A stretch of DNA of 22,995 nt from a virus (IMGVR_UViG_3300032289_001477:1-22995), one strand, 5' to 3'; shown: positions 7,093 through 22,995, numbered from the stretch's first letter. The notes: generated from the sequence alone by a model not told the origin. Translations and numbers: made by a program.

Positions 7093-7098
7093 AATATG

Positions 7099-7521
7099 TT
7101 AATCTAGATAGGAATATATTTGTTTATTAATAGATCTCATTACCACCGAGTCTTGAAAAGCCTTACCAACAGATATTCTGAATCTATATCTAGTAAAAAC
7201 ATCAAAACTTTCAATACCTTCCGTATGCTCCATAATCTCTGCTATAGGTTTTGTAATACTAAAGTTAGTATGTCCTGTCCAAAAATTAAAAATTTTACTT
7301 GATGCTGTATTTTCATTATATGGTATAGCTCCAAAAGGAGTTAGTATAATTTTACATCTTACTTCTTTAGCATTTTTAAGAATATCTTCCGTTTTAACAT
7401 CTTCTTCTTCGTAATCTTCAGTATCATAGTCTTTATTATCTATAGATAGATCCTCTTCTAGATCTGTACCAAAAGGATCTTTCCATTTTTCCCATATGAT
7501 CTTATGTTTTTGTGTACTCAT
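7099..7521 (-). CDS. Conserved hypothetical phage protein with acidic segment
   Basis: This 140-residue protein has an acidic stretch at about residues 17-45. A well-formed globular part follows (VRCKIILTPFGAIPYNENTA, FNFWTGHTNFSI, FDVFTRYRFRISVGKAF). The second part has the look of a protein conserved in aquatic phages, but I cannot assign a function. It overlaps the upstream gene by 4 nt and ends 6 nt before the ClpP-like start, so it belongs to the same operon. Confidence 0.75.
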   Translation of the reverse strand: MSTQKHKIIWEKWKDPFGTDLEEDLSIDNKDYDTEDYEEEDVKTEDILKNAKEVRCKIILTPFGAIPYNENTASSKIFNFWTGHTNFSITKPIAEIMEHTEGIESFDVFTRYRFRISVGKAFQDSVVMRSINKQIYSYLD

Positions 7522-7949
7522 TGTCGTATATGCCTAGAGAAAACTTCTGATGGTGGAATGTAAGTTCTATTTTGTTTTATCTCTTTTTTGTCTTTACTTT
7601 CTTTATCCATCAAAGCCCAAAACATAATAATGTTTTCTATTAAAATCTGATTATTTTCATTTTTAATCTGATCTAATACAATACCGGTAATTTGAGATTT
7701 AAGCTTATCACTAGCTGCTATATTCAAAAATTCTGCACACTTTTGAGTATACTCAAACATACTTTTTTTAGCTAAATCATTAGTAGTATCAATAAAAACA
7801 GACAGGTCAATCTCTCCATTCTTAGTCAATGATATAATAATATCAACATAAGAATCTTTATGATGAATATCATTTATATCTTTTTTAAGATTTGGACCAT
7901 CGGGCGTATTGGTATCCTTATTGAAGTAAGACATTAGTTTGTTAATCAT
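7518..7949 (-). CDS. Hypothetical protein
   Basis: This 143-residue protein has no recognised domain. The sequence is mostly helical in character, with no membrane helix, and ends with a basic tail YIPPSEVFSRHIRQ. It overlaps both neighbours by 4 nt. Its place directly after the sigma-factor gene and one other small gene leaves open a role in late transcription, as with T4 gp33, but nothing in the sequence shows this. Confidence 0.7.
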   Translation of the reverse strand: MINKLMSYFNKDTNTPDGPNLKKDINDIHHKDSYVDIIISLTKNGEIDLSVFIDTTNDLAKKSMFEYTQKCAEFLNIAASDKLKSQITGIVLDQIKNENNQILIENIIMFWALMDKESKDKKEIKQNRTYIPPSEVFSRHIRQ

Positions 7950-8371
7950 AATAAGCTTTTTTGTATAGTTCTGTCTATAATAGAAAATAGGGGGTTGTGA
8001 AAAGCATTCTGTGTAAAATCATATTTATTCCAGTAAGTATTTTTACAATTTTTCTGCTCTATCACGATTCCACACAACAAGAATAAACTATTGGCAATAT
8101 CAAAACTATTATCCTTATTAAGAGTATCAATATATTTTGAGACAAGATCGGATTGAATATCTATGTAAGAAACCAATACCTCTTCAATAAAACGAATCAT
8201 ATTATCGTCAAACATTTTTTTAGCATAATATCTTATCTCATTATGCATCGTCTGTGGATTATGAAGTTCAACCACAGGCAATTCGATTTCATTTTCTTTA
8301 GTAGATAAAACATAATTTTGTTTTTTATTTATATCTGCTGTAATAATGCAGTAAACAGTGTATAGTTTCAT
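7946..8371 (-). CDS. Hypothetical protein following the sigma factor gene
   Basis: This 141-residue protein starts MKLYTVYCIITADINKKQNY and has alternating hydrophobic and polar segments. The hydrophobic stretch IANSLFLLCGIVI (residues 92-104) is too short and isolated for a confident membrane helix. No family is recognised. Both ends overlap neighbours by 4 nt, which ties its translation to the sigma factor. Confidence 0.7.
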   Translation of the reverse strand: MKLYTVYCIITADINKKQNYVLSTKENEIELPVVELHNPQTMHNEIRYYAKKMFDDNMIRFIEEVLVSYIDIQSDLVSKYIDTLNKDNSFDIANSLFLLCGIVIEQKNCKNTYWNKYDFTQNAFHNPLFSIIDRTIQKSLL

Positions 8372-9021
8372 GATAAGCTTCTAATTTTAGTAATAGCTGT
8401 TTTAATGCTTTGTCTAATTGCTTCTCTAGTGACGCCGTACTTTTCGCCAATCTTTTCTAATGTTTGATTTTCAAAATAATACATTCTAATATGGTCTTTC
8501 TGCTTATGAGATAAGATCTCTGATCCCAAAATTTCTTGAATTAATTCTTCAGATATTTCTCTATTCTCTTTAGCTATTAATATGTCTATGGGTTCTTGTT
8601 GAGTATTATCAGCTATGATATCTGTTAAGGACAAATCATCAAAATCCTTACTACTTATTCCAGACATATTATACGACTTTTTGGTAGAGTGTGCAATCTT
8701 ATATTTTTTAGTGGTATATGTTTTGATGGCCCATATAGCGCATTGATTTCTATAAGAATACAAAGTCTTATATTTTTTAGCATCCTGGTCCTTTTCATCT
8801 CCTTTTTTCCATCTCCAATCACCCATCATAATTGCGTTAGCAACAAAAGCGATAGCATCTTCACTTTTCAACATTTCTTTGGAAAGCCCATTAAAAAATG
8901 TTGGCCCTAATTTAGCAATAATTTTTTTTGCTAAGTTTAGGTAAAAATCTAAAGACTCAAAGTTAACTTCTGTGTGGTCCGAATACTGAATCTTCTGTTT
9001 TCCAATTGATGGAATTATCAT
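8368..9021 (-). CDS. Sigma-70-family RNA polymerase sigma factor
   Basis: This 217-residue protein has a clear sigma region 4 at residues 165-215: LSHKQKDHIRMYYFENQTLEKIGEKYGVTREAIRQ, then SIKTAITKIR. This is the helix-turn-helix that reads -35 or upstream DNA. Residues about 55-105 (AIAFVANAIMMGDW, LYSYRNQCAIWAIKTY) resemble region 2, which binds core polymerase and the -10 element. Small sigma factors like this direct middle or late transcription in phages, so it may redirect host polymerase to the fibre and structural genes. The start follows AAGGAA. A TTGACA-17-TAAAAT sequence inside the upstream gene could give extra expression. Confidence 0.85.
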   Translation of the reverse strand: MIIPSIGKQKIQYSDHTEVNFESLDFYLNLAKKIIAKLGPTFFNGLSKEMLKSEDAIAFVANAIMMGDWRWKKGDEKDQDAKKYKTLYSYRNQCAIWAIKTYTTKKYKIAHSTKKSYNMSGISSKDFDDLSLTDIIADNTQQEPIDILIAKENREISEELIQEILGSEILSHKQKDHIRMYYFENQTLEKIGEKYGVTREAIRQSIKTAITKIRSLS

Positions 9022-9062
9022 ATATTTTCCTTGTAGTGTCCTTAAAACTAAATCAAACTAAC

Positions 9063-9560
9063 TTATTTTTGTGCTTTTTTATAAGCTTCCTTGTCCGGGT
9101 AATCCTTATCTCCTTTTTTAGCGGGACGATAATTCTTACCCTCTCTCTGCTTTTTCTTGCGGATATTTTCCCACAAACCGGGCCTTTTGCTCTGTTTGTT
9201 GTTATCGGCAGCCTCGGTCACATACATGACAAAATCGTGAATTGTTCTCATATAGTCCTCAGTAATGGCGATTTTACCCTGTAGCCAGCTTTCTGTCAAG
9301 TTTTCTGCTATCGATGGATCTTCTAGACTATCTAATATTTTTTGAGCATGACTCATTATTGCTCTTATAGATCCTACATTCATATCATAAAAATCTTTCT
9401 TATATTCCATCATTTCCATTTCTGGACTTTCAATTTCCATATCTTCAACTTTCAAAAAATCTCCTTCATTAGCTTTAGCTTTTATGTCTAATTGTTTCTG
9501 GGTAGTGGATTGAATTATTTCGTTTTGAATACTATTCATAATTGGTTTTAGTCTATCCAT
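9063..9560 (-). CDS. Conserved phage protein with GLWENIRKKK motif
   Basis: This 165-residue protein has an acidic, helical first half (VEDMEIESPEMEMMEYKKDF). Its basic C-terminus, GLWENIRKKKQREGKNYRPA followed by GDKDYPD, resembles a short conserved motif at the ends of many phage proteins, often near head genes. The precise role is unknown. A GGAG site lies 9 nt before the start. It sits between another conserved phage protein and the sigma factor. Confidence 0.75.
   Translation of the reverse strand: MDRLKPIMNSIQNEIIQSTTQKQLDIKAKANEGDFLKVEDMEIESPEMEMMEYKKDFYDMNVGSIRAIMSHAQKILDSLEDPSIAENLTESWLQGKIAITEDYMRTIHDFVMYVTEAADNNKQSKRPGLWENIRKKKQREGKNYRPAKKGDKDYPDKEAYKKAQK
9271..9299 (-). promoter_or_regulatory. 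Possible internal sigma-70-like promoter upstream of the sigma factor
   Basis: TTGACA and TAAAAT are separated by exactly 17 bp on the minus strand, inside the coding sequence for NLTESWLQGKI. The sigma-factor start lies 250 nt downstream. Because it is coding DNA, the match may be chance. Confidence 0.3.
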
Positions 9561-9599
9561 GATTTTTCTCCATTATCGGTGATTGGGTCAGTTAGTAGA

Positions 9600-10115
9600 T
9601 TACCATGATTTACATGCCCAATAACGGGCTTTCCATTTCGGGCCTGGACTATCACATCTCATTCTTGCCCTAAAGCTTTTTCTTCTTGCGGGAATATCTT
9701 TTTTGATTTCCATGTTTGGGTCACCAAATCGTACAATAACAACTTTTCCGCTCTCGTTCTTGACATAAACAGCAAATTTTTTAGGACCATCAGGAGTTCT
9801 AAAAGGTTTATTAAGTGTTACTTTTCTCCCGCCATGCTCTGCGGCTAATGTCCTCTCATCTTCTTCATAAATAATATCAGCCTCTATCTCCCAAACAAAT
9901 TCGTCCCATTCGTCATTCCAAGAACAATTAGATGCTAATAGACTATCATGTACTTGCTCAATAAGAGACGCTTTATTATTTTGACCTGTTTGAGAGAGAC
10001 AAACAGCTATCCTTTGTTTAGAGTCAGGATAGTCTTTTTTCATTGATGCGTTACCCATACAACGGGCAACAAAAATATTTTTATCTTCATTTGGTTTTCT
10101 GGATGGTATAGGCAT
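9600..10115 (-). CDS. Conserved phage protein, possibly two-part, head-associated
   Basis: This 171-residue protein starts with MPIPSRKPNEDKNIFVARCM and KDYPDSKQRIAVCLSQ, a motif found in marine and freshwater phage proteins. Residues about 95-171 (RKVTLNKPFRTPDG, KKFAVYVKNESG, RFGDPNMEIKKDIPARRKSF) form a second conserved block rich in basic residues, ending PGPKWKARYWACKSW. Four cysteines (20, 38, 64 and two near the end in the RCDSPG and WACKSW segments) might bind metal. Functions of these modules are not known to me. The start is in TAATG, with the preceding glycosyltransferase stop overlapping by one base, and a good GAGGAAAG site precedes it. Confidence 0.75.
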   Translation of the reverse strand: MPIPSRKPNEDKNIFVARCMGNASMKKDYPDSKQRIAVCLSQTGQNNKASLIEQVHDSLLASNCSWNDEWDEFVWEIEADIIYEEDERTLAAEHGGRKVTLNKPFRTPDGPKKFAVYVKNESGKVVIVRFGDPNMEIKKDIPARRKSFRARMRCDSPGPKWKARYWACKSW

Positions 10116-11200
10116 TATAATCTTTCCTCAAATAAATTATGATAAATAATATTAGCCGTATTAGCCCAAGTTAATTGTCTGGCTGTTTGTAGACCAGCTT
10201 CATTTGTACTAATATGATTATTATACACGAATCGCATATGCTCAACGATTTGTTCCATTTGATTATCTCCTAATTCAGCCCATTTTCCGTAACCATCAAA
10301 AAATTTATCATCTACTGCGTCTATTAAACTATCTATATTAATTAGATAACTATTCTCTTTTGTCAAATATTGAGTGTGGGCCGAATAGTTTGTGGCAATA
10401 ATCGGCTTATTCATAGCCATAACTTCTGGTATCTCATTATTCCATCCTTCTGCTCTGGCTGGAAAAATTCCACAGTCACACATATGAATTAATCTGGCCA
10501 CATCTTGATGTTTCGGTAATCTGGATAATATTATTATTTTGTCTTTTAAGGGACTATTTTTATATAAATTAATCCATGACATATTTTGTTCTTTAGTTAA
10601 AAATGGATTATCATTTAGCATCCATAGCTCTACTTTGTCTTCCTTTGTAAAAGCATTATTAAAAGCCTCCACTAAAAAATCATGTCCTTTTCTAACTTCC
10701 CACTTACCTATATTTAAAAAAACATAATTATCATTAGGTTTTTTGACATCTTTCATACTTTCAGAATCGGGATTAAACACATCCAGGTCTACGCCCAATG
10801 GAGAAACAGCTATATTTGTTGTTATATTATTATCTAGCAGTACTTGCTTTGCCCACTCAGAAGCAACAAATACAATATCTGTCATATTGGTCATATGAAT
10901 TTCTATAGGTTTTAATTTATCAATCTCAAAGAATGTCAGTGCTCCGTACTTACCCTTACCTATTCTAGTAGCTAAATCAAATTGATGCCATATTTTTAGA
11001 AATATACTATTTGGATCATATTTTTCTTGTTTATTAATATCTATAATACAATTTTTTTGATCTTCTTCCGTATCTACAGAGATCCCTCTCATTGGAAATA
11101 GTGTAAGATCTAATCTTTTTCTTAGTTCTTTATAAATATTGTATGATGTAACACCATACCCTGTTAATCCCATTGGACACATCAAATTAAGTTTTTGCAT
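10115..11200 (-). CDS. GT4-type glycosyltransferase
   Basis: The 361-residue protein has the two-domain GT-B plan of glycosyltransferase family 4 / group 1. The first part has a Gly-rich acceptor-side loop (GLTGYGVTSYN, residues 12-22). The second part has GKWEVRKGHDFLVEAF near residue 168 and the nucleotide-sugar motif CDCGIFPARAEGWNNEIPEV, with its E-x7-E type ending, followed by MAMNKPIIATNYSAH. Likely roles are glycosylation of virion proteins, modified phage DNA bases or host surface sugars; the sequence does not decide which. It overlaps the GMP reductase gene by 14 nt and the next gene by 1 nt. Confidence 0.85.
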   Translation of the reverse strand: MQKLNLMCPMGLTGYGVTSYNIYKELRKRLDLTLFPMRGISVDTEEDQKNCIIDINKQEKYDPNSIFLKIWHQFDLATRIGKGKYGALTFFEIDKLKPIEIHMTNMTDIVFVASEWAKQVLLDNNITTNIAVSPLGVDLDVFNPDSESMKDVKKPNDNYVFLNIGKWEVRKGHDFLVEAFNNAFTKEDKVELWMLNDNPFLTKEQNMSWINLYKNSPLKDKIIILSRLPKHQDVARLIHMCDCGIFPARAEGWNNEIPEVMAMNKPIIATNYSAHTQYLTKENSYLINIDSLIDAVDDKFFDGYGKWAELGDNQMEQIVEHMRFVYNNHISTNEAGLQTARQLTWANTANIIYHNLFEERL

Positions 11201-12314
11201 TATCGTAGATCCTATTATGTGTATTATTGACTAAAACAAATGTTGTTTTTTTACCAAAGTCTTTAATTTTATTTGCTCCAATATATGTACAAGCACTTCT
11301 TATACCACCAAATATGTCTTGTAAAGTATCTTCTGCTATACCTTTATAGGGAACAGTAACGGTTTTACCTTCTGCTGTTCTATATTTTGCTATTCCGTTA
11401 TGATGCTTATCCATAGCGTCTTTACTACTCATACCATAATATTGTAATGATACTTTGCGTTTTTCACATGGGAAAGCATACTTTGGATCTATAGGTTGCC
11501 AAAACCCTTGTCCTGTAAGATATTCATATTTCCATTCTCCTTCGCATTCATCACAACCAGCAAACATACTACCTAGCATCACAAAGTCACTATTTCCGCC
11601 AAAAGCCTTACAAACATCTCCGACTACTTTACATCCACCATCACTACAAATACGACTACCAAGACCATGAGCAGCGTCCGCACACTCCATTACAGCGCTC
11701 AATTGGGGGTATCCCACGCCAGTTTTTAATCTAGTAGTACAAACACTGCCAGACCCTATACCAATCTTAACTATATCTACCTGACCATGAATAATCAATT
11801 CTTCTGTCATTTCTGGAGTTACTACATTTCCGGCCATAATAATAGAATCCGGAAATAAATTACGAAGTCTATATGCTGTTTTAACGAATTGTTCAGTGTA
11901 GCCGTTAGCAACATCCAAACAAATATTTGGAGTTTCAAACTTAAGATTTTTTATTAGATTGAATACATCAATAGCTTTCATAATATCTTTTTCGCTTGTT
12001 CCAATAGAATAAAAGGTAAGATTTTTATTAACTATATTAGAGTCTGTATAAAATGAGACATATTCATTTTCTTTATAGTGCTTATGTAAACAGGTTATTG
12101 CTCCTCTTTTCCCTGTTTCTTTAGCCATTTGTATAGTGCCAGTAGTATCCATATTGGCCACCATAATTGGAATGCATGCTAATCGTCTTGGAGAATACTT
12201 AAAATTAAAAATTCTTGAGATACATACTTCTGACCTACTCTTTAATATTGATCTTTTAGGTCTAATTAATACATCATCAAAATCTAACTTAGTATCATTA
12301 ATAATTTTTTGCAT
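11187..12314 (-). CDS. guaC: GMP reductase (NADPH-dependent GMP to IMP)
   Basis: Close agreement with bacterial GuaC runs along the whole 375 residues. Examples are LDFDDVLIRPKRSILKSRS, ANMDTTGT, LDVANGYTEQFV and AGNVVTPEM, then the catalytic loop GSGSVCTTRLKTGVGYPQLS with Cys192, then SDGGC, FGGNSDFVMLGSMFAG, YYGMSSKDAM, YRTAEGKTVTVPYKG and GGIRSACTYIGA. It lacks the CBS domains of IMP dehydrogenase, and the AEGKTV flap marks GMP reductase. It is about 28 residues longer than E. coli GuaC, partly through an insertion after FAG (CDECEGEWKYEYLTGQGFW...) that contains extra cysteines. It would convert guanine to adenine nucleotide precursors. It starts one base after the preceding stop. Confidence 0.93.
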   Translation of the reverse strand: MQKIINDTKLDFDDVLIRPKRSILKSRSEVCISRIFNFKYSPRRLACIPIMVANMDTTGTIQMAKETGKRGAITCLHKHYKENEYVSFYTDSNIVNKNLTFYSIGTSEKDIMKAIDVFNLIKNLKFETPNICLDVANGYTEQFVKTAYRLRNLFPDSIIMAGNVVTPEMTEELIIHGQVDIVKIGIGSGSVCTTRLKTGVGYPQLSAVMECADAAHGLGSRICSDGGCKVVGDVCKAFGGNSDFVMLGSMFAGCDECEGEWKYEYLTGQGFWQPIDPKYAFPCEKRKVSLQYYGMSSKDAMDKHHNGIAKYRTAEGKTVTVPYKGIAEDTLQDIFGGIRSACTYIGANKIKDFGKKTTFVLVNNTHNRIYDNAKT

Positions 12315-12315
12315 G

Positions 12316-12507
12316 TTATTCTTTCAAGTATTTATCTGTGGAATATTTGTTTGTCTCGTTAAATCCTTTTTCATCCACATATATTGTGGGTCCTAGTAAT
12401 ATCCCCTTTCCGTGCATATCGTGTATAAATTTCTTAATAGCCTCATCAATATTTTGAGAGGAAATAATGTACTTAAGATTTCCACAAATAATATAGTATT
12501 TACTCAT
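12316..12507 (-). CDS. Small hypothetical protein
   Basis: This 63-residue protein starts MSKYYIICGNLKYIISSQNI. The alternating pattern followed by a helix (DEAIKKFIHDMHG) suggests a small alpha/beta fold. It has no recognised family. It sits between the deoxyribosyltransferase-like and GMP reductase genes with 1-2 nt gaps, which supports real translation. Confidence 0.65.
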   Translation of the reverse strand: MSKYYIICGNLKYIISSQNIDEAIKKFIHDMHGKGILLGPTIYVDEKGFNETNKYSTDKYLKE

Positions 12508-12509
12508 AT

Positions 12510-13040
12510 TTAAACATTAAAGAAATACCATCTCTTATAATGCTCAAAGTTCTCCGAAGAGTCTATATGCGTAAGATAGTCTTTGATTTCTTGCCAAGAA
12601 GAAAAAATCATCTGATGAGGGAAAGTACCAAATAACCAGTCTGGGGTATGTTTTTTACCTTGTTCCATGTGAATAATAATGGGCTTTTTTTGTCTATTTG
12701 CCCAAAATATTTCTTCTAAAGTTCCACATGGATGAGTGGTAATATCTAGGTTGACTATGAGAAAATCACTAATATCTACTAATCTAAGATCAACGCGACG
12801 AATAGTTTTCATCATTTCTGCTAATTCATCATATCTCTCCATGCTTTTCAATTTAGTCTTAATCGTATGAGAGTCTCTATCTTCCATGCCGGTTGTTGTA
12901 GGTTTAGTTATTGGATTAAACACTATAATGCCCATTTCTTCTAGAAAAGGAGTAATGTTATCTCTCCAGGTTGCTCCTCTATCGGGCACCCTATCCATAG
13001 CTCCTGCTAAATAGACTCTTTGATGATTTAGTCTGTTCAT
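12510..13040 (-). CDS. Nucleoside 2-deoxyribosyltransferase-like protein
   Basis: This 176-residue protein has the N-terminal signature VYLAGAMDR at 9-17, followed by WRDNITPFLEEMGIIVFNP. It also has SDFLIVNLD at 91-99 and HPCGTLEEIFWANRQKKPII, where Glu109 or Glu110 lies at the position of the family's catalytic glutamate. Family members move or hydrolyse the N-glycosidic bond of deoxynucleosides or deoxynucleotides, and their fold is related to that of TIR-type NAD hydrolases. The substrate cannot be read from the sequence. Overlaps of 4 nt with the upstream glycosyltransferase-like gene suggest coupled translation. Confidence 0.75.
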   Translation of the reverse strand: MNRLNHQRVYLAGAMDRVPDRGATWRDNITPFLEEMGIIVFNPITKPTTTGMEDRDSHTIKTKLKSMERYDELAEMMKTIRRVDLRLVDISDFLIVNLDITTHPCGTLEEIFWANRQKKPIIIHMEQGKKHTPDWLFGTFPHQMIFSSWQEIKDYLTHIDSSENFEHYKRWYFFNV

Positions 13041-13690
13041 ATTTCTTTCATGAATCCTATTTGGTTTAAAACTGATCTCATTGTTTTTGCTCTGTCTGTA
13101 AACATTGTTGCATGAAAAAATCTAGAATCTTTTGGGATTTTTCTATGATCATGAATATGCGGATTCCATCTATAGTCTAGTTGTGTCCACGGAATTGTAA
13201 ATTTATCTGGCAATAATATATTATTTGTTGAAGCATCAATACCTAGTAGATGGAGCATAGCGTTTTGTTCCCACCATCCATCGCTTCGTGCTAGGTTATT
13301 ATACTGCCATAGTTGATCGAACCAACTCAAACACTTTTTGTCTAGTAGCCATACGCCACAGTTAGGAACACTACCTATAGGAACTTCATGAACAACCATA
13401 CCAACATGAGAATCTGTCTCTAAATCATCGAATATATCTTTATCGAAATGACAAATAATAACATCTGAATCAATCCATAACACTCTATCGTATGTATTAA
13501 AAAGTTGAGTAATAAGTTCTATTTTCCACCAAGAAGGTTCTCTTTCTTTTGTGGTCTCAGAAAAAAAATCTAAAGATGGAATAAATAGATCATAGTTATG
13601 TTTATTGGCATAAAGACTAAATGTAGGAGCGGCTAAAGACATCAGCTCTACATGACTACCAAAACCAAATGATGTTAAGACTTTTTTCAT
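13037..13690 (-). CDS. GT34/GMA12-like glycosyltransferase
   Basis: This 217-residue protein has a GT-A type core. YDRVLWIDSDVIICHFDKDI near residue 67 contains the metal-binding DSD at 74-76. VPNCGVWLLDKKCLSWFDQL and GWWEQNAMLHLLG are typical of the galactosyl/mannosyltransferase GMA12/MNN10 group, and FFHATM near the end supplies the usual C-terminal His. It may decorate phage DNA, virion protein or host glycans. Both ends overlap neighbours by 4 nt. The presence of a second, unrelated-fold glycosyltransferase in the same operon is notable. Confidence 0.75.
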   Translation of the reverse strand: MKKVLTSFGFGSHVELMSLAAPTFSLYANKHNYDLFIPSLDFFSETTKEREPSWWKIELITQLFNTYDRVLWIDSDVIICHFDKDIFDDLETDSHVGMVVHEVPIGSVPNCGVWLLDKKCLSWFDQLWQYNNLARSDGWWEQNAMLHLLGIDASTNNILLPDKFTIPWTQLDYRWNPHIHDHRKIPKDSRFFHATMFTDRAKTMRSVLNQIGFMKEI

Positions 13691-14232
13691 TTTGATTTCG
13701 GTACATATACAAAAACATTAATGCCAGACCATATATCCGTAATTAAGTTCGATACAAAAGACCAGTCTCCACCAGCTAAACCACAACCAAACTTTGGACA
13801 ATGTATTTCTATTTTGTCGTGTTCTGTCAAAGATAATTCATTCACAAAATTTCTCACCGATACCATACAATTAACCAATGCTTCATAATTTAATGGTCTA
13901 GGATTACTTATTTTATTAATGGTTTTATTTTGTGCTATCATATTTGCAACAATTAAATTTCTACGATACTGTTTGTCCACTCTAGTTGATACAAACTGCA
14001 CATGGCCTAGTTGGGCTTTTTTCCCCAATAGATGAAAATTTTCTTTCACAACGGGGTATTCGGATCCTACGGCAGAAGCAAAACCAGCACCAAACAGATT
14101 AATGTTATTACATACATGAGGGATAATCACTGTAGCCCCTAAATGTCCTGCGAAAACCCTTTGTTCGACAATGTCAAAAATATTATCGTCTGAAATCGCA
14201 ATATTACCATGTTTTTTATTATATTGTATCAT
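13687..14232 (-). CDS. Macro-domain protein (ADP-ribose binding or hydrolase)
   Basis: This 181-residue protein is essentially one macro domain. The ADP-ribose loop is seen as IPHVCNNINLFGAGFASAVG (37-56), followed by YP at 59-60. The second loop is CPKFGCGLAGGDWSFV (145-160), as in Poa1p/TARG1-like members. Such proteins bind ADP-ribose, remove ADP-ribose from macromolecules or act on ADP-ribose-1''-phosphate. The long loop between the two motifs and lack of any second domain fit a free-standing enzyme. In a phage it could undo host ADP-ribosylation or clear NAD-derived signals, which is inference. It overlaps the next gene by 4 nt. Confidence 0.83.
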   Translation of the reverse strand: MIQYNKKHGNIAISDDNIFDIVEQRVFAGHLGATVIIPHVCNNINLFGAGFASAVGSEYPVVKENFHLLGKKAQLGHVQFVSTRVDKQYRRNLIVANMIAQNKTINKISNPRPLNYEALVNCMVSVRNFVNELSLTEHDKIEIHCPKFGCGLAGGDWSFVSNLITDIWSGINVFVYVPKSK

Positions 14233-15003: not shown

Positions 15004-15759
15004 TTATTCAAGATCCTTGATTACTTCTTTAATCCAGTCTAAGTGATCGCTGATTCTTGTATGTCCGCTTTGATGTCCATAACGAGAGTCAGGATTCTTA
15101 CCTGTTGTCATAACACAAGAATGAATTCCTGCAAGTTTGTTTCCTATAAAAAGACCTCCTCCACTATCCCCAGAAGCAATCAAAAATTCTAGAGAGGTTT
15201 TCTTGCCGGGTCCAGATGGTGAGCAGACTATCAATCCTCTATCAATTTTATCTATATAATTAGATCCTGCTCTTTTTTTACTATCTGAGATTTTAGCACC
15301 AGTAATAAAAGTACCCGTGATACCAAAACCACTCATTGTACATAATTTATTAGTCTCGTCTTTATCCTCGTATAATTCTGGATAAAAATTAAGATCAATA
15401 TTTTCAGCTAATAATCCTATAGCAATATCGTTATAGCCAAAAACATTATCTTTAAAATCATTATGATAAATAATTTTCTGAATATGAATTTTTTTATCAG
15501 CTATGGTAATAGAACAAGACTCACACTCCTTGACAACATGCGCTGCTGTTAGTATAATTCTGGGTTGGACAACTACTCCAGAAGCACAAAAAGAAGTTCC
15601 ATCCTTGTATTTACCACATATCATTCCTACATAATCAAATTTTTTACCAAATTCAACATAATGAGAATCCGGAATATTTGGGTCTATAGTACCAGCAAAA
15701 GAAATACAGAACAAAAAGATTAGAGTAGTAAAACCTAATACTTTTATAATACTCTGCAT
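15004..15759 (-). CDS. Secreted trypsin-like (S1 family) serine protease
   Basis: This 251-residue protein has a signal peptide at residues 1-22 (hydrophobic VLGFTTLIFLFCIS, likely cut after SFA). The S1 triad is complete: His74 in ILTAAHVV, Asp111 in YNDIAIGLL and Ser199 in SGDSGGGLF. GMICGKYKDGTSFCASGVVV is the usual strand before the His. Seven cysteines in the mature part could form disulfides outside the cytoplasm. It would act in the periplasm or outside the cell, on host surface or competitor proteins. The gene has its own GGGTGTATA motif 42 nt upstream and an AGAGGTG ribosome site. Such proteases are rare in phages, so recent acquisition is an inference. Confidence 0.9.
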   Translation of the reverse strand: MQSIIKVLGFTTLIFLFCISFAGTIDPNIPDSHYVEFGKKFDYVGMICGKYKDGTSFCASGVVVQPRIILTAAHVVKECESCSITIADKKIHIQKIIYHNDFKDNVFGYNDIAIGLLAENIDLNFYPELYEDKDETNKLCTMSGFGITGTFITGAKISDSKKRAGSNYIDKIDRGLIVCSPSGPGKKTSLEFLIASGDSGGGLFIGNKLAGIHSCVMTTGKNPDSRYGHQSGHTRISDHLDWIKEVIKDLE

Positions 15760-15832: not shown

Positions 15833-16837
15833 TTATAGTACTTTAGATGCTATTAGGCAGCCTTTTGATACAGCGTGTAGTGGGTCTCCAGCATGACGAA
15901 CTACTTTTAATGATAAAGGAAAACTATTCTCTTCAAGTTTTTTAGTAAAAATATCTATATATCCTTTTGCCTGAGAAGTTCCCCCAGCCACAACAACAGT
16001 TAATGGATCCTTAAATTTTGGTAAAGATTTATGATTCTTTAAAGCCATGCTTAGTTGCTTGGTGGTATAATCTATCAGCCTATCGTAGTATGCAGATACA
16101 GCAGCTAAAACAGGATTTTCTACTGGTTGACCAATAATAAAATCACCACCCTCTTTCTCTGCCTGAACAACACTATCCGGTTCACCAGTTGCTACAGCAC
16201 TCATTCTATCGATCCAATCTCCAGACTTTGTGGTACTAAAGACCACTGTTGGCTCACCATTAAGCATCACGCAAACATTGGTCATTCCTGCCCCACAGCT
16301 AATAGCAATACCAGTATAATCTTCACTCTCTAATTCAGCATAACAAAGAGCTTCTGCTTCATTAATTGCTCTAGCTTCATAGCCACATTCAGCTAAAATA
16401 GTCTTTACAACATCTTCATGATAACCAACATCAAAATCTTCATCTTCTTGATCTACTGGTTGTGCTGGTACACAAAATACTAATTTCTCGCCGGGTTCAG
16501 ATGCTTGTCCGACTACTTCCTTTAAAATAAAAGCCAATATTCTTTTAGCATCTTTTTCTTTGGAAGATACTACTCCCTTGTACATTGGTCTTTTAGCGGT
16601 GTCATTACGTTCGATGGCTTTCTCTATAGCGTCCTTCCCAAGGAGAATAAATGAGTTATCAGCGTCTTTAATAAAGACTTTGCCCGTCAACCCCTTTTCA
16701 ATCATTTTAGTTGCTACGGGCGTTGTGGGCTTGATGACATAAAAAGCATCTCTAAAATCCTTATATTCTACTTTACCATTATTATTTTCGCTAGAAAGTA
16801 CAATATAACTAGTTCCTACATCCAATCCCTTTGACAT
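15833..16837 (-). CDS. Actin-fold ATPase (ParM/MreB-like)
   Basis: This 334-residue protein has the actin-superfamily nucleotide site: phosphate-1 loop GLDVGTSYI (4-12), connect-1 INEAEALCYAEL (158-169), phosphate-2 loop IAISCGAGMTNVCV (177-190) and adenosine motif VVVAGGTSQAKGY (281-293). Length fits bacterial actins, and it lacks the DnaK substrate domain. Plasmid and phage actins form filaments that move or position DNA. It follows the membrane protein by only 3 nt and starts with a good AAGGGGT site, so the two probably work together. Whether it polymerises, or belongs instead to a non-filament ATPase branch, cannot be told here. It is the last gene of its operon. Confidence 0.83.
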   Translation of the reverse strand: MSKGLDVGTSYIVLSSENNNGKVEYKDFRDAFYVIKPTTPVATKMIEKGLTGKVFIKDADNSFILLGKDAIEKAIERNDTAKRPMYKGVVSSKEKDAKRILAFILKEVVGQASEPGEKLVFCVPAQPVDQEDEDFDVGYHEDVVKTILAECGYEARAINEAEALCYAELESEDYTGIAISCGAGMTNVCVMLNGEPTVVFSTTKSGDWIDRMSAVATGEPDSVVQAEKEGGDFIIGQPVENPVLAAVSAYYDRLIDYTTKQLSMALKNHKSLPKFKDPLTVVVAGGTSQAKGYIDIFTKKLEENSFPLSLKVVRHAGDPLHAVSKGCLIASKVL

Positions 16838-16840
16838 TTT

Positions 16841-17152
16841 TTACCCCTTCATATTTTTGAGCTTATTAATTGATGACTCAATATTCTCTTCGGATTCTTT
16901 TTTGTCTCCAAGAGACGAGTATTTCTTTTCTAAGCCTGTAGTTTTAATATCTATCACATATTTAGTATCGTTAATACTAATTTTATCCTCTTTCTTTTCT
17001 TGGTCTTTCTCAAAAAAAGACTTCGGCTTAATGCTATATACACCCTTTTCGGTATTAATTCTACCTAGAATATAACCAATTAATGTGCCAAATGCACATA
17101 GAATAACTAAAACTATTACTAGCAGTGATGTCTGATCTATATTTATATTCAT
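16841..17152 (-). CDS. Single-pass membrane protein with charged cytoplasmic tail
   Basis: This 103-residue protein has one strong membrane helix at about residues 8-30 (SLLVIVLVILCAFGTLIGYI). A long polar tail follows, rich in Lys and Glu, with a helical end (ESEENIESSINKLKNMKG). No catalytic motif is seen. It overlaps the RuvB stop by 4 nt and precedes the actin-like gene by 3 nt. From context I infer a membrane anchor for the actin-like protein or the RuvB motor. It could instead be a spanin-like or generic inner-membrane protein, but no lysis genes are nearby. Confidence 0.75.
   Translation of the reverse strand: MNINIDQTSLLVIVLVILCAFGTLIGYILGRINTEKGVYSIKPKSFFEKDQEKKEDKISINDTKYVIDIKTTGLEKKYSSLGDKKESEENIESSINKLKNMKG
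17037..17045 (-). promoter_or_regulatory. Intragenic GGGTGTATA copy
   Basis: This is the same 9-mer as the three intergenic motifs, here inside the membrane-protein gene and about 200 nt before the actin-like start. It lacks the usual 40-48 nt spacing, so chance is likely. Confidence 0.2.
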
Positions 17153-18045
17153 TCAATCTTGCCTATAACACGACCTTTTTGAGTTCTATGAACAAAACCT
17201 TTTCTCATTAGATATGGTTCTATACTATTTTCTATGGTTTCTATAGCAATTCCAGTTAATGAAGAAATTGATTTTAGGCCCAGAGGAGTCATCCTGGACT
17301 TCTCCAACACACCAATATACAATCTATCATACACATCCAGACCATATTTATCTATACCTTGAATATTGAAAATATCGTCAACAGAAACATCATTATTATG
17401 ACAAGATTTATAATTTTTGTACCATTGAAGTCTTGCATTAAGAATACGAGGGGTTCCTTTGCTTCTTTTTGCAATTTCCAAGAGGTCTGCATCGTCTATG
17501 ACTATCTCTAATTTTTCAGAATTCAATCTTGCTAGTTTAGCAAGATCATTATCGCTATAAAATGATAGGTGTTCTTTGATAGTAAATCTGTCGTAGAATG
17601 GCTGACTTAAACTACCTCCGCTTGTTGTTGCTCCCACAAGAGTAAACATAGGAATATCAATAGTCTGTGGTTCATTCTCTACTGTAATACTCAGTACAAA
17701 ATCTTCCATCACCGGATACAAAAATTCTTCCACAAGCTTAGGAAGTCTGTGTATTTCGTCAATAAACAGAACCGAGCGAGGAGCAATCCCCATTAAATAT
17801 GGGAGGATATTCTTAGGGCTTCGCAGATTTGCGGCATTTGCCGTATACAGATTAACATTAAGTTCCGTAGCGATAGCACTTGCTATGGTGGTCTTTCCAA
17901 GGCCAGGAGGGCCGTCTATTAAAACATGAGGCATCACAGCGCCCGCGTTTTTACAACCGACCACAGACACTCTTAGACGCTCTATAACAGAGTCCTGACC
18001 AACGATTTCATCAAACTTAGAAGGCCGGATTACGTTCCTCGTCAT
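17149..18045 (-). CDS. ruvB: RuvB-like Holliday-junction branch-migration ATPase
   Basis: This 298-residue AAA+ protein aligns with RuvB throughout. It has FDEIVGQDSVIERL, Walker A GPPGLGKTT (45-53), Walker B LFIDEIHRL (93-101), sensor-1 LVGATT (136-141), QPFYDRF (148-154) at the arginine-finger region, sensor-2 KGTPRI (196-201) and a C-terminal winged helix ending EPYLMRKGFVHRTQKGRV (276-293). It is shorter than the usual 330-350 residues, mainly at the N-terminus and in the beta-hairpin area that contacts RuvA. It may move branched DNA during phage recombination-dependent replication. It overlaps the upstream RuvA-III-like gene by 29 nt. Confidence 0.92.
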   Translation of the reverse strand: MTRNVIRPSKFDEIVGQDSVIERLRVSVVGCKNAGAVMPHVLIDGPPGLGKTTIASAIATELNVNLYTANAANLRSPKNILPYLMGIAPRSVLFIDEIHRLPKLVEEFLYPVMEDFVLSITVENEPQTIDIPMFTLVGATTSGGSLSQPFYDRFTIKEHLSFYSDNDLAKLARLNSEKLEIVIDDADLLEIAKRSKGTPRILNARLQWYKNYKSCHNNDVSVDDIFNIQGIDKYGLDVYDRLYIGVLEKSRMTPLGLKSISSLTGIAIETIENSIEPYLMRKGFVHRTQKGRVIGKIE

Positions 18046-18475
18046 TATTATTTTCTCCCAAAGATTCCAAGGTTTGTTTAATTAGCAATATACAATCATT
18101 AACAGGATTTTGTCTAAAACTATTCCTGAGCAATTGTTCTGACTCTGACTTAGTAAAACCATAGTCAACCAATGTTATAACACACTTATTCAATACGTCA
18201 ACCGAAATATCTTCTTTTGGTGCTTTTATAGTAGATAGGCTAACAAAATGTTTCTCCTCGTCTACTGCTATTTTTTTCTGTTTATTCGGTATTTGATATA
18301 CAATCTTTAGGCGAAGTATTTGTTTTGGCTTAAAGATAAAACCACAATCACATACCACCTTAAAGTTTTTTGTTTGTGTTTCCTTGAGAGATAACCAGTG
18401 AGTATAACCACATCTAGGATTTTTGCACAAATATCTGAAATGAGCATCGTATTCAGTCGGTTTCTGGTTTATCAT
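18017..18475 (-). CDS. Zinc-ribbon protein with RuvA domain-III-like C-terminus
   Basis: This 152-residue protein starts with a probable zinc ribbon: Cys17 and Cys22 (CKNPRC) and Cys42 and Cys44 (CDC). Residues about 92-138 (VLNKCVITLVDYGFTKSESE, LLIKQTLESL) fit the small three-helix domain III of RuvA, the part that binds and regulates RuvB. The four-way-junction domains I and II of RuvA are missing. I infer a phage adapter that loads the neighbouring RuvB onto DNA through the zinc ribbon. The 29-nt overlap with RuvB and 23-nt overlap upstream point to coupled translation. The RuvA-III match is by pattern and context only. Confidence 0.65.
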   Translation of the reverse strand: MINQKPTEYDAHFRYLCKNPRCGYTHWLSLKETQTKNFKVVCDCGFIFKPKQILRLKIVYQIPNKQKKIAVDEEKHFVSLSTIKAPKEDISVDVLNKCVITLVDYGFTKSESEQLLRNSFRQNPVNDCILLIKQTLESLGENNNDEERNPAF

Positions 18476-18869
18476 AGTATTTTAAATGGTCTGGTACATA
18501 AAAGAGGAAATCGTTTGATTCACTATCATAAGCTGTTTCTATCAATCCCTTATTAACTAGTACTTGCAAGAGATTACTAACCATTCTTTCGTTAAAAGAA
18601 TTTATCATATCGGTAAATGTTTTATCCGAAATTATATATCTAGTATCATTTGTTTTTTTATTAACTTGCTTACGAACTATAGATTTTGCTATGATCTCAC
18701 ATTCATTATAAGAAAGTATCTTATCTATTTCTGTTTGTTCATCGACTGTTAATTCAGTGTATGTTCTATTGTCATCTTCTTCTGATTTTGATCCGAAACT
18801 ATTAAACACTAATAGTCTTGAGGTATCAATAAACTCTTCAAAATCACTAATAATATACCAGTCTGACAT
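18453..18869 (-). CDS. Hypothetical protein, possible winged-helix
   Basis: This 138-residue protein starts MSDWYIISDFEEFI. Residues about 80-128 (ISDKTFTDMINSFNERMVSN, LLQVLVNKGLIETAYD, FLFYVPDHL) follow a helix-helix-wing order that could be a winged helix. Confidence is low. No cysteine cluster or membrane segment is present. An AAAGGAAC site precedes the start, and the 3' end overlaps the zinc-ribbon gene. Confidence 0.65.
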   Translation of the reverse strand: MSDWYIISDFEEFIDTSRLLVFNSFGSKSEEDDNRTYTELTVDEQTEIDKILSYNECEIIAKSIVRKQVNKKTNDTRYIISDKTFTDMINSFNERMVSNLLQVLVNKGLIETAYDSESNDFLFYVPDHLKYYDKPETD

Positions 18870-18879
18870 AGTTGTTCCT

Positions 18880-19284
18880 TTAGTTTAAGATATCAAACAA
18901 ACCCCTATAATATATAGGCTGTTGTAAAAAATGTTTAGCGTTTGCTTCTAAATGCTTTCTATAACTAATATTTATAGAGTCTACTATAAAATATTTATTT
19001 TTCCATACTGCTTGACCAGCATAGTTACTCCCCAAATACTGAAAGGTATTACCCTTGTCAGTATTGGAGATATAACTATTCACAGGAATCGACTTCGATG
19101 GAAAACCATAAGCATACCACACATTTGGTGAAATCTCAACAGCTTCATTTAACGCATCATATAGCCATTTGCCCCAAGCATCCCACGATTCAGGATCAAA
19201 CTTGAAATAATGTTTATGCTGACTCTCTAAATTGTCCTGACTATCATCGTCATCGTAGTTGTCATTTTCATAATCTTCGTGCAT
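18880..19284 (-). CDS. Hypothetical protein with acidic N-terminus
   Basis: This 134-residue protein has a very acidic start (HEDYENDNYDDDDSQDN). A Trp/Tyr-rich region follows (FDPESWDAWGKWLYDALNEA, VWYAYGFPSKSIPVNSYISN). I recognise no family. The acidic tail type resembles DNA mimics or partner-binding tails, but there is no further evidence. Its ribosome site GGTGAAAT is the same as that of the upstream primase-like gene. Confidence 0.65.
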   Translation of the reverse strand: MHEDYENDNYDDDDSQDNLESQHKHYFKFDPESWDAWGKWLYDALNEAVEISPNVWYAYGFPSKSIPVNSYISNTDKGNTFQYLGSNYAGQAVWKNKYFIVDSINISYRKHLEANAKHFLQQPIYYRGLFDILN

Positions 19285-19287
19285 ATT

Positions 19288-20475
19288 TCACCCGATACAA
19301 AACTTGTCACTAATCTGATTTGCCAAGTCTCTGGCAGCACCAGAAAGGAATCGGTTGTTACTGAAATACAACGCTGTAGACGCTTGGTTGAGGTACTCGA
19401 CCACCGTTTTTAAAAGTTTGGCCTGTGACTCACTCAAATCTAAACCGCTATTGCCAGCATGAGAAGGTAGTGCTGGCGAAGGATCACCATAAGTCTTCTC
19501 ATAATTATTGCCAAAAGACTTATTGCACTTATAATCAACATACTTATTAGGATCTTCTTTATTAAGGCTGTAAGTCTTACCAAAGTCTCCCCACGCATTA
19601 TCTTTAGTATTCTTTTGACAACAACTATCAGAGACACTATTAGTATAGACTGTTTTTTGACTATTAAGTTCATTCAGAATCTTTGTGGCAGCATCAAAAC
19701 TTACTGGAAGTCCATTATTATCAGACTTCTTATAAGTTTCACGCCACTTATCAAACCAAGCATCACTAGTAGCATTAGGAACAATATTTACTGTTGCTGG
19801 TTGACCAGTTAATGCAGCTATTAAATCTTGAACATTAACGATCTGACCAGTTGAACCTTGAAGAACAGTAGAGTAGTAAGAAGCTTTCTTCTCCCAGCAC
19901 TTACGCCACCAAGTATAAGGAACTCGATAAATCTGATTAGTCTTGATGGCTCGTGCATCTCCTCCAAAGTAATTTACCAACTTCTTCTGAAGACCATTCC
20001 AATTTTGTTTATTGATGTGTCTGCTATTTTTATCCAAAATCCAATAAACCTGATAACCATTACGGGTATCAACAACCCAACTAGGAGTTACCGAAAAACT
20101 ATTGATCTTATCAAGAGTAGCCTGCTTAAACCTCATAACCTCTTTTGAGGAAAGATAGTTACCAGTAGAATCTCGCCCAGCATCAATATCAACAAAGCAG
20201 GAGCGGAACTCATTAATAGCATATTGCTTTCGTCCACCGTTCACATAAAAGTAAACATCTGAACTATTATTTAGATTAGCATGAACCGCTAGAGTTAGAT
20301 CAGCAGTATGAGACATAGTACTGATTTTTTTACGAGGATCTCCATTGTAACAATAAATATTTTGCTCGCCACCAAAAGAGTGGATAAACTTTCCTCTCAT
20401 TTCGCAGTCCCGTTGATTAAAAGCTTGATTAGTTTTATTATCGTAGGGATTAAAACCAAGTTCCATCTTAAACAT
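19288..20475 (-). CDS. AEP-superfamily (RepB-type) primase-like protein
   Basis: Residues about 55-195 of this 395-residue protein match archaeo-eukaryotic-type primases of the RepB_primase group. The hhhDhD metal motif is CFVDIDAG (93-100), the second motif is VVDTRNGYQVYWIL (134-147), and the third is GGDARAIKTNQIYRVPYTWW (171-190), in place of the common RxPGxxNxK. The second half is Asn/Ser/Lys-rich with several cysteines and no recognised helicase. It may prime DNA synthesis or replication restart. The usual fused helicase is absent, and whether it lies elsewhere in the genome cannot be seen. It ends 3 nt before the next gene. Confidence 0.7.
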   Translation of the reverse strand: MFKMELGFNPYDNKTNQAFNQRDCEMRGKFIHSFGGEQNIYCYNGDPRKKISTMSHTADLTLAVHANLNNSSDVYFYVNGGRKQYAINEFRSCFVDIDAGRDSTGNYLSSKEVMRFKQATLDKINSFSVTPSWVVDTRNGYQVYWILDKNSRHINKQNWNGLQKKLVNYFGGDARAIKTNQIYRVPYTWWRKCWEKKASYYSTVLQGSTGQIVNVQDLIAALTGQPATVNIVPNATSDAWFDKWRETYKKSDNNGLPVSFDAATKILNELNSQKTVYTNSVSDSCCQKNTKDNAWGDFGKTYSLNKEDPNKYVDYKCNKSFGNNYEKTYGDPSPALPSHAGNSGLDLSESQAKLLKTVVEYLNQASTALYFSNNRFLSGAARDLANQISDKFCIG

Positions 20476-20648: not shown

Positions 20649-20698
20649 AGGATGCGAATTATCGTAATCATCCAGGATACGAATTGTCGTAATCATCC
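20649..20698 (-). repeat. 25-bp tandem duplication at the rIIB 3' end
   Basis: Two adjacent 25-bp copies differ at two positions. The first encodes the final DDYDNSYPG of the protein. Because 25 is not a multiple of three, the second copy lies in another frame, downstream of the stop. Confidence 0.8.
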
Positions 20699-21540
20699 TC
20701 GTCCTCAAAATCCTCATCTTCATCTTCATCTTCAAACTGATCCCAATAGCTTTCATCATAATCATTCAGATAATCGTCCTCATCATCTTCGTAATCATCT
20801 TGACTAAAATCAGCCTTATAAAGAGGCTTGAGCAATTCGCCCTCATATTCACCAACTACTTCGTAGCGACAAGTGCGAAGTTTTTCATGGTTGCAATCGC
20901 TAGGAACACTAACAACATCCTTGGGATTAATCTTGACGATCACAATCTTATCCCCAGCATCCAGATTTCCATAACTAGCAACATAATTCAATGCTCCAGC
21001 ATGAAGTCCATCTGAACAACCACGACTACGATCATCGTCTACCTTTGCTCGTTGCATTTGGCAGACCTTGCCGACACTATTATCAAAAACTCCCCTATAC
21101 TTATCCTTAAAGTCTGAACGAACAGCCTTATAAGCAAGGAAATAACCATCCTCAGTAATAGGTAGATGCTCATGCTCCAAGAAATCATACAGTTCCTTTT
21201 GACTCTGCATACTTGGATTTTCCATGAGATTATTCAGGAAATTAACAAGGGGCTGGAACGGCAATCCCTTGCTCATAAACTCCAGAATACGCTTACTAAT
21301 ACTACCATGAACTTGCTCACCCTCATAAAGAACCTGTCCATTCTTGATCTCTACAAGACCATCACTGAAAGTAGCAACAGCCTTTTGAACATCAACAACT
21401 TCCAACAGTTCCTCTGCTGTAGCAGAGGGAAGTTTTTCCAGAATCAACTTATAGTTGATATGATCCGGCAACACTTGATAACTCTGGTTATTAAGAACCA
21501 GCGTCAAATTACCATCAACAAACATAAATGGAACAGCCAT
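20668..21540 (-). CDS. rIIB: rIIB-like protein
   Basis: This 290-residue protein matches T4 rIIB strongly over residues about 45-225: QKAVATFSDGLVEIKNGQVL, RILEFMSKGLPFQPLVNFL, NLMENPSMQSQKELYDFLEH, ITEDGYFLAYKAVRSDF, FDNSVGKVCQMQRAKVDDD, GCSDGLHAGALNYV and KINPKDVVSVPSD. The N-terminal helix-turn-helix of T4 rIIB is not present. The C-terminus instead is a long Asp/Glu-rich tail (residues about 235-290). In T4, rII proteins protect infected cells against RexAB-type exclusion and affect lysis timing, with membrane association. A TAGGAGT site precedes the start, and a sigma-70-like promoter lies 45-72 nt upstream. Confidence 0.9.
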   Translation of the reverse strand: MAVPFMFVDGNLTLVLNNQSYQVLPDHINYKLILEKLPSATAEELLEVVDVQKAVATFSDGLVEIKNGQVLYEGEQVHGSISKRILEFMSKGLPFQPLVNFLNNLMENPSMQSQKELYDFLEHEHLPITEDGYFLAYKAVRSDFKDKYRGVFDNSVGKVCQMQRAKVDDDRSRGCSDGLHAGALNYVASYGNLDAGDKIVIVKINPKDVVSVPSDCNHEKLRTCRYEVVGEYEGELLKPLYKADFSQDDYEDDEDDYLNDYDESYWDQFEDEDEDEDFEDEDDYDNSYPG

Positions 21541-21584
21541 AATCCGAACTCCTAGTTTATAGTTACGATACCCGTGATACTGTC

Positions 21585-21612
21585 ATTTTACACTAATCGG
21601 CAAGCTTGTCAA
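21585..21612 (-). promoter_or_regulatory. Sigma-70-like promoter before rIIB
   Basis: TTGACA, a 16-bp spacer and TAAAAT lie in the 93-nt gap between rIIA-like and rIIB genes. Position and consensus fit an early promoter read by host polymerase. Confidence 0.65.
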
Positions 21613-21633
21613 GGGGTCTTGAATAATTTCTGA

Positions 21634-22995
21634 CTACTTGATCAAACTACTCAACTGAATCTTAAACAGATCAATATTTTCCTGGCTCATCTGTTCAATC
21701 CAATCCTTACTCTGATTTCCATAGTATGAGTGATTTTCAATAATAGGATTCTGATTAGACTTTAGATCTCTCAGATCACCAACAACTTGATGAGTCCCCA
21801 TAATATATTTCAGCATAGGATTCTTATCTACTTCAGCCTTAATTTTTTCCCTAATCTCAGAGATTTTCCATGTCTTGATATCCTGGGTAGAAGTCCCACG
21901 GATAATTTTAAGATAGCTCTCTATCTTATCGGCTTGACCATTATACAAATTGTGAGAAATCATTCTTGTCAAAGTGTTATAAGCCAAGTTAGCATTACGA
22001 ATCTCTTTACCATCAACATCTTCTATCCCAGCCTCTTTCATAAGCTTAGAGATATGAGACAGATACTCTGTTTGGTTGAACTTGCTAATATTGTAAGGAC
22101 TAATATGAACAGTATTAGCGAAAAACTCTGTGAGTATTGTTTTATTCAAGCAGTCCACAAGAGTCTTGTTGTTAATAAACTTATCATAATCCAAGCCAAA
22201 GATATTTAGAATATGAAACATAAACTGCTTATCAGTTGTCCCGTAGTTATAATACCTGTAGCCCTTCTTCTTCTCTTCTTCGTTAAAGTCTTTCTTGCAA
22301 TATTCAACAAACTTGTTAATGGAAGAAAGGTTCTTGAAGTGCTTATGTGCTACAACTTTAAGTTGACGCTTCAAAAACTCATTAAAGTTAACAAGATTGT
22401 ATCCATCTTTCTCAAGCTTTTTGAGGAAAGCTGTTTTAATAGCATAAATCTTGCTGTCTCCAACCAAGTCTTTGACTATGCTCTTGAGTGTTTGATCCCC
22501 AAGAGTAATTGCAATATCATTAATCTGTGGATAACCAGAATGATCCTCAGTCTTATATCGAAGCATAGGAACGTACACGATCTCATCCTGTTCCAGAAAA
22601 TCTTCTAGTTGTTTTTCTGAAAGAATTCTCAGACGAGTAGCGTCGTTATAGGGATTAGTAATCTGCTTACTATCCTCATTATAACCGTGGATAAAAAATA
22701 CGTCTTGGTCGCTGACGCTACCATTAGAATTTCTACTATAAGACTTTCTTGGGCCAGAACTTTGTGTCAGATGCTTGTAGTCTGAAACCTTGAGTAGATT
22801 TTCAGCCCCAACATCTTCGACTAGTTGATCAAAACCTTCTCCGCTCTTTGTATGATCTTTAGTGTCGATCAAAAGATATGCAAAGCAATCATTTGCATTA
22901 CAGTACCTTGTAATAATTTTCTTGGCAGTTTCTTCACCCTTAACGTCGCAGATAAAGAAAGTCATATTACCCTTCTTCTTCTGGTTATTCCAATA
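21634..22995 (-). CDS. rIIA: rIIA-like protein (5' end cut by window edge)
   Basis: The frame stays open to the right edge (YWNNQKKKGN precedes the first internal Met at 22965), so the visible 453 residues are the C-terminal part of a longer protein. The GHKL-ATPase domain expected at the N-terminus of rIIA would lie outside. KIYAIKTAFLKKLEKDG resembles the T4 rIIA segment EFYVIRPLLQKKVKELG, and NPMLKYIMG resembles its C-terminal YPELDFMMKYF. Gene order (immediately before rIIB) is the same as in T4. Overall similarity is weak, so the call leans on context. rIIA acts with rIIB against superinfection exclusion in T4. Confidence 0.6.
   Translation of the reverse strand, partial: YWNNQKKKGNMTFFICDVKGEETAKKIITRYCNANDCFAYLLIDTKDHTKSGEGFDQLVEDVGAENLLKVSDYKHLTQSSGPRKSYSRNSNGSVSDQDVFFIHGYNEDSKQITNPYNDATRLRILSEKQLEDFLEQDEIVYVPMLRYKTEDHSGYPQINDIAITLGDQTLKSIVKDLVGDSKIYAIKTAFLKKLEKDGYNLVNFNEFLKRQLKVVAHKHFKNLSSINKFVEYCKKDFNEEEKKKGYRYYNYGTTDKQFMFHILNIFGLDYDKFINNKTLVDCLNKTILTEFFANTVHISPYNISKFNQTEYLSHISKLMKEAGIEDVDGKEIRNANLAYNTLTRMISHNLYNGQADKIESYLKIIRGTSTQDIKTWKISEIREKIKAEVDKNPMLKYIMGTHQVVGDLRDLKSNQNPIIENHSYYGNQSKDWIEQMSQENIDLFKIQLSSLIK

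Follow-up and report, generated by a model that had tools for sequence, protein, structure and literature searches.

A clade of large, RecA-encoding tailed phages, represented here by an IMG/VR virus fragment of 22,995 bases (IMGVR_UViG_3300032289_001477:1-22995; the window, below, means this whole stretch), appears to carry two neighbouring functional pairs, a RuvAB-like motor and a membrane-anchored actin, a reading that we hold with moderate confidence. The evidence favours the two pairs acting largely separately. We infer the contact between RuvB and its adaptor, the polymerisation of the actin, the contact between anchor and actin, and both biological roles.

Gene organization of the locus

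All long genes of the window are found on the minus strand. Read along this strand, the region starts near the contig end with the C-terminal part of a rIIA homologue (21634..22965), which matches an 871-aa rIIA-type ORF of the related 238 kb record G001 (E 8.9e-236), itself a match to phrog_612 RIIA (2.8e-112), and continues with a rIIB homologue (20668..21540; phrog_609 RIIB, 1.6e-73). These two homologues stand directly upstream of the block considered here (window 20668-22965), as in most related loci. They are followed by a 395-aa protein weakly assigned as primase/replication-initiator-like (19288..20475; phrog_10514 DNA primase, 2.5e-7; RepB_primase, 0.0012, under the cut-off), a conserved 134-aa protein of the same gene run (18880..19284) and a winged-helix-like protein of 138 aa (18453..18869). 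Then come an adaptor with an N-terminal zinc ribbon and a C-terminal RuvA domain III-like domain (18017..18475), a RuvB motor of 298 aa (17149..18045), a one-helix membrane protein of 103 aa (16841..17152) and a volactin-type actin of 334 aa (15833..16837). The winged-helix gene, directly upstream of the adaptor gene, overlaps it by 23 nt, the adaptor and RuvB genes overlap by 29 nt and the RuvB and membrane protein genes by 4 nt, and the actin gene follows the membrane protein gene after 3 nt.

A sequence-only reading had described the last four genes as overlapping or 3 nt apart, and all four ORFs are indeed located there on the minus strand. As a block, the four are present, but the description left out the winged-helix gene, which is the more constant neighbour of RuvB in relatives. 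Close spacing was rejected as evidence of joint function, since 19 of the window's 30 neighbouring gene pairs are just as tight, overlapping or sitting at most 5 nt apart. Dense packing is thus the rule in this genome, and the interest of the block must rest on comparison with relatives.

The window also holds, downstream of the actin, a gene for a trypsin-like protease with a signal-peptide-like start (15004-15759), present in 116 of 149 related loci. The stretch 6412-14232 codes for a ClpP-like protease, a sigma factor, an IMP dehydrogenase/GMP reductase-like enzyme, a deoxyribosyltransferase and two glycosyltransferases, in an order largely kept in relatives. Finally, a 726-aa protein with FG-GAP-type repeats (2217-4397; Pfam, 4.8e-21) is probably part of the tail fibre region.

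Conservation of gene order among relatives

Scans of IMG/VR returned 313 relatives of RuvB and 262 of the actin, and the best 80 of each were taken, giving 149 loci. These contigs are redundant, with many near-duplicates, and the tallies given here count contigs, not independent events; the effective sample is nearer 95 distinct RuvBs, those placed in the tree. The order common to the 149 loci is rIIA, rIIB, the primase-like gene (in 78 of the 149), the 134-aa protein (145), the winged-helix protein (147), the adaptor, RuvB, the membrane protein and the actin. The four-gene order is kept in more than 100 related contigs, bearing out across a clade the conserved co-occurrence and order that the sequence-only reading had suggested looking for in related phage genomes. 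What exceeds chance is this conservation of order, not the tight spacing; shared expression timing could explain it.

Within this order the joins differ in tightness. The 134-aa protein gene precedes the winged-helix gene with a median gap of 10 nt. Wherever the adaptor occurs, the winged-helix, adaptor and RuvB genes are always contiguous: the winged-helix and adaptor genes overlap in 119/119 loci, and the adaptor lies at most 5 nt from RuvB in the same 119/119. Similarly, the membrane protein and actin genes are separated by a median of 3 nt, and by no more than 50 nt in 93% of 126 loci. The gap from RuvB to the membrane protein ranges from -11 to 5291 nt and is 50 nt or less in just 29% of 127 loci, many relatives having thioredoxin-like, HNH or DUF1501 genes inserted at this point. 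The larger arrangement is constant all the same: a same-strand RuvB is found upstream in 43/43 loci from the actin scan that have 7 kb of upstream sequence, the actin is in view in 40 of the 48 RuvB-scan loci with 7 kb downstream, and the RuvB-actin order is never broken within the clade where both genes are visible.

The RuvB motor and its putative adaptor

By its profile matches and motifs, the protein encoded at 17149-18045 is a RuvB motor with a predicted role in branch migration. It scores 295 bits against the NF000868 RuvB model (cut-off 282) and 275.8 against TIGR00635, below the cut-off of 299 of the latter, and the RuvB_N, lid and C domains are all found with Pfam. Walker A and B, sensor 1, the arginine finger, sensor 2 and a C-terminal winged helix with R-T-x-K-G-R are kept, this last motif being the counterpart of the DNA-contacting arginines of Pseudomonas aeruginosa RuvB (PMC10071043). 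The presensor hairpin, the element that binds RuvA domain III in the bacterial motor, is present, about 4 residues shorter than that of E. coli, and has no Ile at the I148 position in the alignment; it is shortened in lineages with and without the adaptor alike. RuvBs in deposited phage records are about 40% identical or less.

The adaptor tail is well supported as a RuvA domain III (D3) by a PDB profile search, Pfam and structure. The family (57 sequences; mean column identity 42%) combines a zinc ribbon whose cysteines C17, C22, C42 and C44 are invariant with a conserved C-terminal block, a three-helix, RuvA domain III-like domain at about residues 92-143. With the family profile, hmmsearch against PDB places 1ixs_A on top (E 2.9e-4), other RuvA chains being lower; this chain is the domain III of Thermus thermophilus RuvA, from a structure solved with RuvB. 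The AlphaFold model (pLDDT 85) shows a confident ribbon and three-helix domain, and in a Foldseek search of 350,542 chains the top 15 were all RuvA, again with 1ixs_A first (TM 0.76 on target), with E-values that are weak because the domain is short. The gene identities proposed from the sequence, including the RuvA-III-like tail, were therefore right, the same chain leading both searches. RuvA_C, the Pfam family matched by most members, is found in 11 of the 57 adaptors (best 3.3e-4), and in two long records its matches fall on the adaptor gene alone; HHalign of the adaptor with E. coli RuvA alone gives a probability of 37%. Mutation of L167 and L170 in the D3 of E. coli RuvA abolishes RuvB activity (PMC2628435). 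L167 aligns with adaptor L102 (L in 51/57, M in 6) and L170 with Y105 (Y in 52, L in 4 of the 57), both positions being hydrophobic or aromatic in all 57. Where RuvA has domain I (OB fold, PF01330) and the core that forms the junction-binding tetramer, the adaptor has the zinc ribbon.

The adaptor is not present throughout the clade. It is missing beside 22 of 94 distinct RuvBs, about a fifth of the lineages, and its presence and absence on the RuvB tree imply about 10 changes, at least 3 of them on well-supported branches. Moreover, it was not found anywhere in 9 of 25 long records searched over their whole length. RuvB in such lineages thus works without the adaptor.

The winged-helix protein upstream gave a confident AlphaFold model (pLDDT 86), whose best Foldseek matches were mostly MarR-type winged helices, weak in score (E 0.08, prob 0.5), and its comparison with PDB sequences returned chance-level matches only. 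A short winged-helix paralogue was found at L163:4207-4930 (G001 175207-175930; E 1.2e-6); it overlaps a second ORF, which by eye resembles it.

The actin and its putative membrane anchor

The actin is a member of the volactin family by its profile match: it scores 202 bits against PF25216 Volactin (E 1.8e-59; cut-off 35 bits) over profile positions 1-320 of 321. MreB_Mbl is also matched in Pfam (6.6e-5). No PDB sequence matches at E 0.1, so the fold is assigned from the Pfam profile. Mean column identity is 86% among 39 relatives of the actin and 44% for the membrane protein. All 50 membrane protein relatives have a strongly hydrophobic segment of 19 residues near the N-terminus, a single helix, and their charge bias is mostly N-out/C-in, predicting a cytoplasmic location for the conserved tail. 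In this tail, I60, I69, K77, K97 and L98 are invariant, and searches against PDB gave chance-level matches only. The tail is likely the contact with the actin.

Volactin-type actins also occur outside the clade. Actins 33-34% identical to this one were found in two huge-phage records, and scans with these two returned 108 and 30 further relatives, tested members of both groups matching Volactin at 228-257 bits. These loci (L172-L281, on contigs of up to 533 kb) make up at least two further groups of volactin-type actins. In the first, a different small partner occurs in 46 of 80 loci, mostly 0-16 nt upstream of the actin; this conserved protein of about 75 aa (MPQLIKP..VTKDGEV..LDLNINLN..IPDF..KINFGK) has no membrane helix flagged, and no homology with the membrane protein of the clade was found. 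The other group has the actin surrounded by other genes, which may be structural. RuvB, the anchor, the adaptor and the winged-helix protein had no match within 8 kb on either side of the huge-phage actin loci examined, and no RuvB match was found anywhere in LR745208. By these profile matches, the volactin-type actin is widespread in large phages, with changing neighbours.

Recombination gene set, phage type and host

Gene content was searched in 25 long related records, which are linear and mostly partial, so that absences are provisional and a RuvA or RuvC encoded far from the block might have escaped detection. RecA is over cut-off in 23 of them, the volactin in 22 and endonuclease VII in 19. 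RuvA_N, the RuvA core, was found in 0/25, the control being positive in 10 of 14 genomes, and RuvC likewise in 0/25; RuvA, RuvC and RecA were all detected as expected in bacterial control genomes. The replication gene set of G001 includes a Pol III-type polymerase (phrog_405 type), DnaB, primase, ligase and ribonucleotide reductase, together with rIIA, rIIB and a phrog_2-type terminase. When selected T4 proteins were compared with G001 by phmmer, only rIIA, gp41 (weakly) and gp44 (which hits RuvB) gave matches; in the lack of homologues of gp17, gp20, gp23 and gp43 in this genome, an assignment to T4-like phages (Straboviridae) was rejected. Matches to three metagenome-assembled bins (Chitinophagia, Alphaproteobacteria and Flavobacteriales) disagree with each other and the matching contigs look phage, so no host is claimed from them. 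Two DUF1501 proteins were noted at L163:6839-8107 (G001 177839-179107) and L023:10991-12265 (E 1.9e-103 and 8.5e-111). This family is particularly frequent in Planctomycetota and may point to the host.

Proposed functions of the two pairs

In the first pair, the phage RuvB ring would have as its partner and stimulator a RuvA domain III detached from the tetrameric junction-binding core of RuvA, and the zinc ribbon, perhaps with the winged-helix protein, would replace RuvA in bringing the motor to branched phage DNA. The branched target may be made by the phage RecA, the motor may be brought either to the DNA itself or to a phage protein bound there, and junctions would be cut by endonuclease VII, not by RuvC. 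Structures of RuvAB show D3 linking RuvB to the RuvA tetramer on the junction and influencing the nucleotide cycle of the motor (PMC9477746). Against this pairing stand the lack of the adaptor in about a fifth of the lineages, the shortened RuvB hairpin and a RuvB-adaptor distance correlation of 0.21. In the second pair, the volactin-type actin would polymerise and be attached to the inner membrane through the conserved tail of the one-helix anchor on the cytoplasmic side; such a polymer could arrange phage DNA or assemblies in the cell, or alter cell shape.

The four genes had been proposed to build one joint machine, in which the adaptor-bound RuvB pumps replicating phage DNA, or keeps it in place, at actin filaments anchored to the membrane, motor and cytoskeleton working together. 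The order kept on one strand throughout the clade, with RuvB upstream of every one of the 43 actins, and a RuvB-membrane protein join tight enough for coupled translation in 29% of loci are consistent with it, and the never broken RuvB-actin order leaves room for a shared role. However, unrelated genes are inserted at this same join in many relatives, dense packing is general in this genome, and other huge-phage volactin-type actins are without RuvB within 8 kb or, in LR745208, without any match to it. Distances were also compared by rank correlation (mirror-tree) over 47 non-redundant loci, a weak test. The membrane protein and the actin gave the highest value of all pairs tested (0.47) and the winged-helix protein and RuvB 0.37, while RuvB-actin and RuvB-adaptor, both at 0.21, showed no co-divergence signal over a background of 0.40 for rIIB-actin and 0.44 for rIIB-trypsin. 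The scattering of the genes in related genomes, which the sequence-only reading had named as counter-evidence, was found outside the clade and not inside it. One joint machine is thus not supported, the conserved units being two pairs, with spacers of up to 5.3 kb, and an actin that occurs elsewhere without RuvB. Two neighbouring pairs are the better reading because of the loose RuvB-actin join, the lack of excess co-divergence and these other actins. We regard the single machine as rather unlikely, and slightly less likely still its most specific form, a RuvB ring recruited by the zinc-ribbon/RuvA-D3 adaptor and physically coupled to membrane-anchored volactin-type filaments, moving or holding phage DNA at the membrane.

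The role of the first pair can also be read differently. It is conceivable, at a similarly low probability to the single machine, that the phage RuvB works with the RuvA of the host and that the zinc-ribbon/D3 protein is a decoy or regulator competing with RuvA for the motor. This would agree with the lack of a RuvA core in the 25 records, with an adaptor dispensable in evolution and with the known cross-species complementation of RuvA and RuvB (PMC9477746), but the hairpin is shortened with or without the adaptor, which makes a fit to host RuvA doubtful, and the constant joining of adaptor and RuvB in gene order suits a partner better than a decoy. Very unlikely, in our view, is a RuvB acting as a loader or remodeller in phage replication (clamp-loader-like or helicase-loading) and not as a junction motor. 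RuvB is the sole gp44-like match in G001, AAA+ clamp-loader PHROGs match it, its neighbour is primase-like and DnaB, primase and a Pol III-type polymerase are also encoded by the phage; however, the RuvB-specific equivalog model is over cut-off, the C-terminal winged helix with RTxKGR is kept, and in bacteria D3 serves RuvB specifically.

Comparison with known systems

Searches of the open-access literature turned up no RuvA domain III on a zinc ribbon, no volactin-type phage actin and no phage RuvB-actin module, and no phage appears in the titles or abstracts of the open-access papers on volactin. In RuvA, domain III ordinarily links the tetramer that binds junctions to the RuvB motor; a natural protein with this link alone and a zinc ribbon as reader would directly test whether D3 suffices for control of RuvB, and would be a case of RuvB turned to a new target. 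Volactin has so far been described from one archaeon (Haloferax); with members of its family found in three or more large-phage groups that differ in gene neighbourhood, a further set of viral cytoskeletal proteins becomes available for study.

As in bacterial RuvAB, the phages encode a RuvB with motor and DNA-contact motifs alongside a RuvA domain III-like domain. They differ in being without RuvA domains I and II, in carrying D3 on a zinc ribbon and in the shorter presensor hairpin. Unlike bacterial RuvABC, they have endonuclease VII in the stead of RuvC, and the adaptor is repeatedly absent; a survey has stated that phage RuvC is not coupled to RuvB.

The phage actin shares with volactin of Haloferax volcanii (HVO_2015) a full-length match to the Pfam volactin model, a likeness at the profile level; in a control search of 14 named genomes one was over cut-off, and H. 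volcanii was among the three that matched. Volactin is described as forming dynamic filaments that matter for the archaeal disk shape (PMC10869688), whereas the protein described here is phage-encoded, with a co-encoded membrane anchor. AlpC, a described phage actin, is encoded by prophage CGP3 with a small partner, AlpA (PMC4446434, PMC5539076), similarly to the actin and membrane protein of this clade; AlpA is a DNA-binding adapter, whereas a volactin-family actin is paired here with a membrane protein as its constant partner, the two systems being set apart by description. Finally, the nucleus-forming jumbo phages also have a cytoskeletal polymer of a large phage, PhuZ, which is a tubulin and not an actin.
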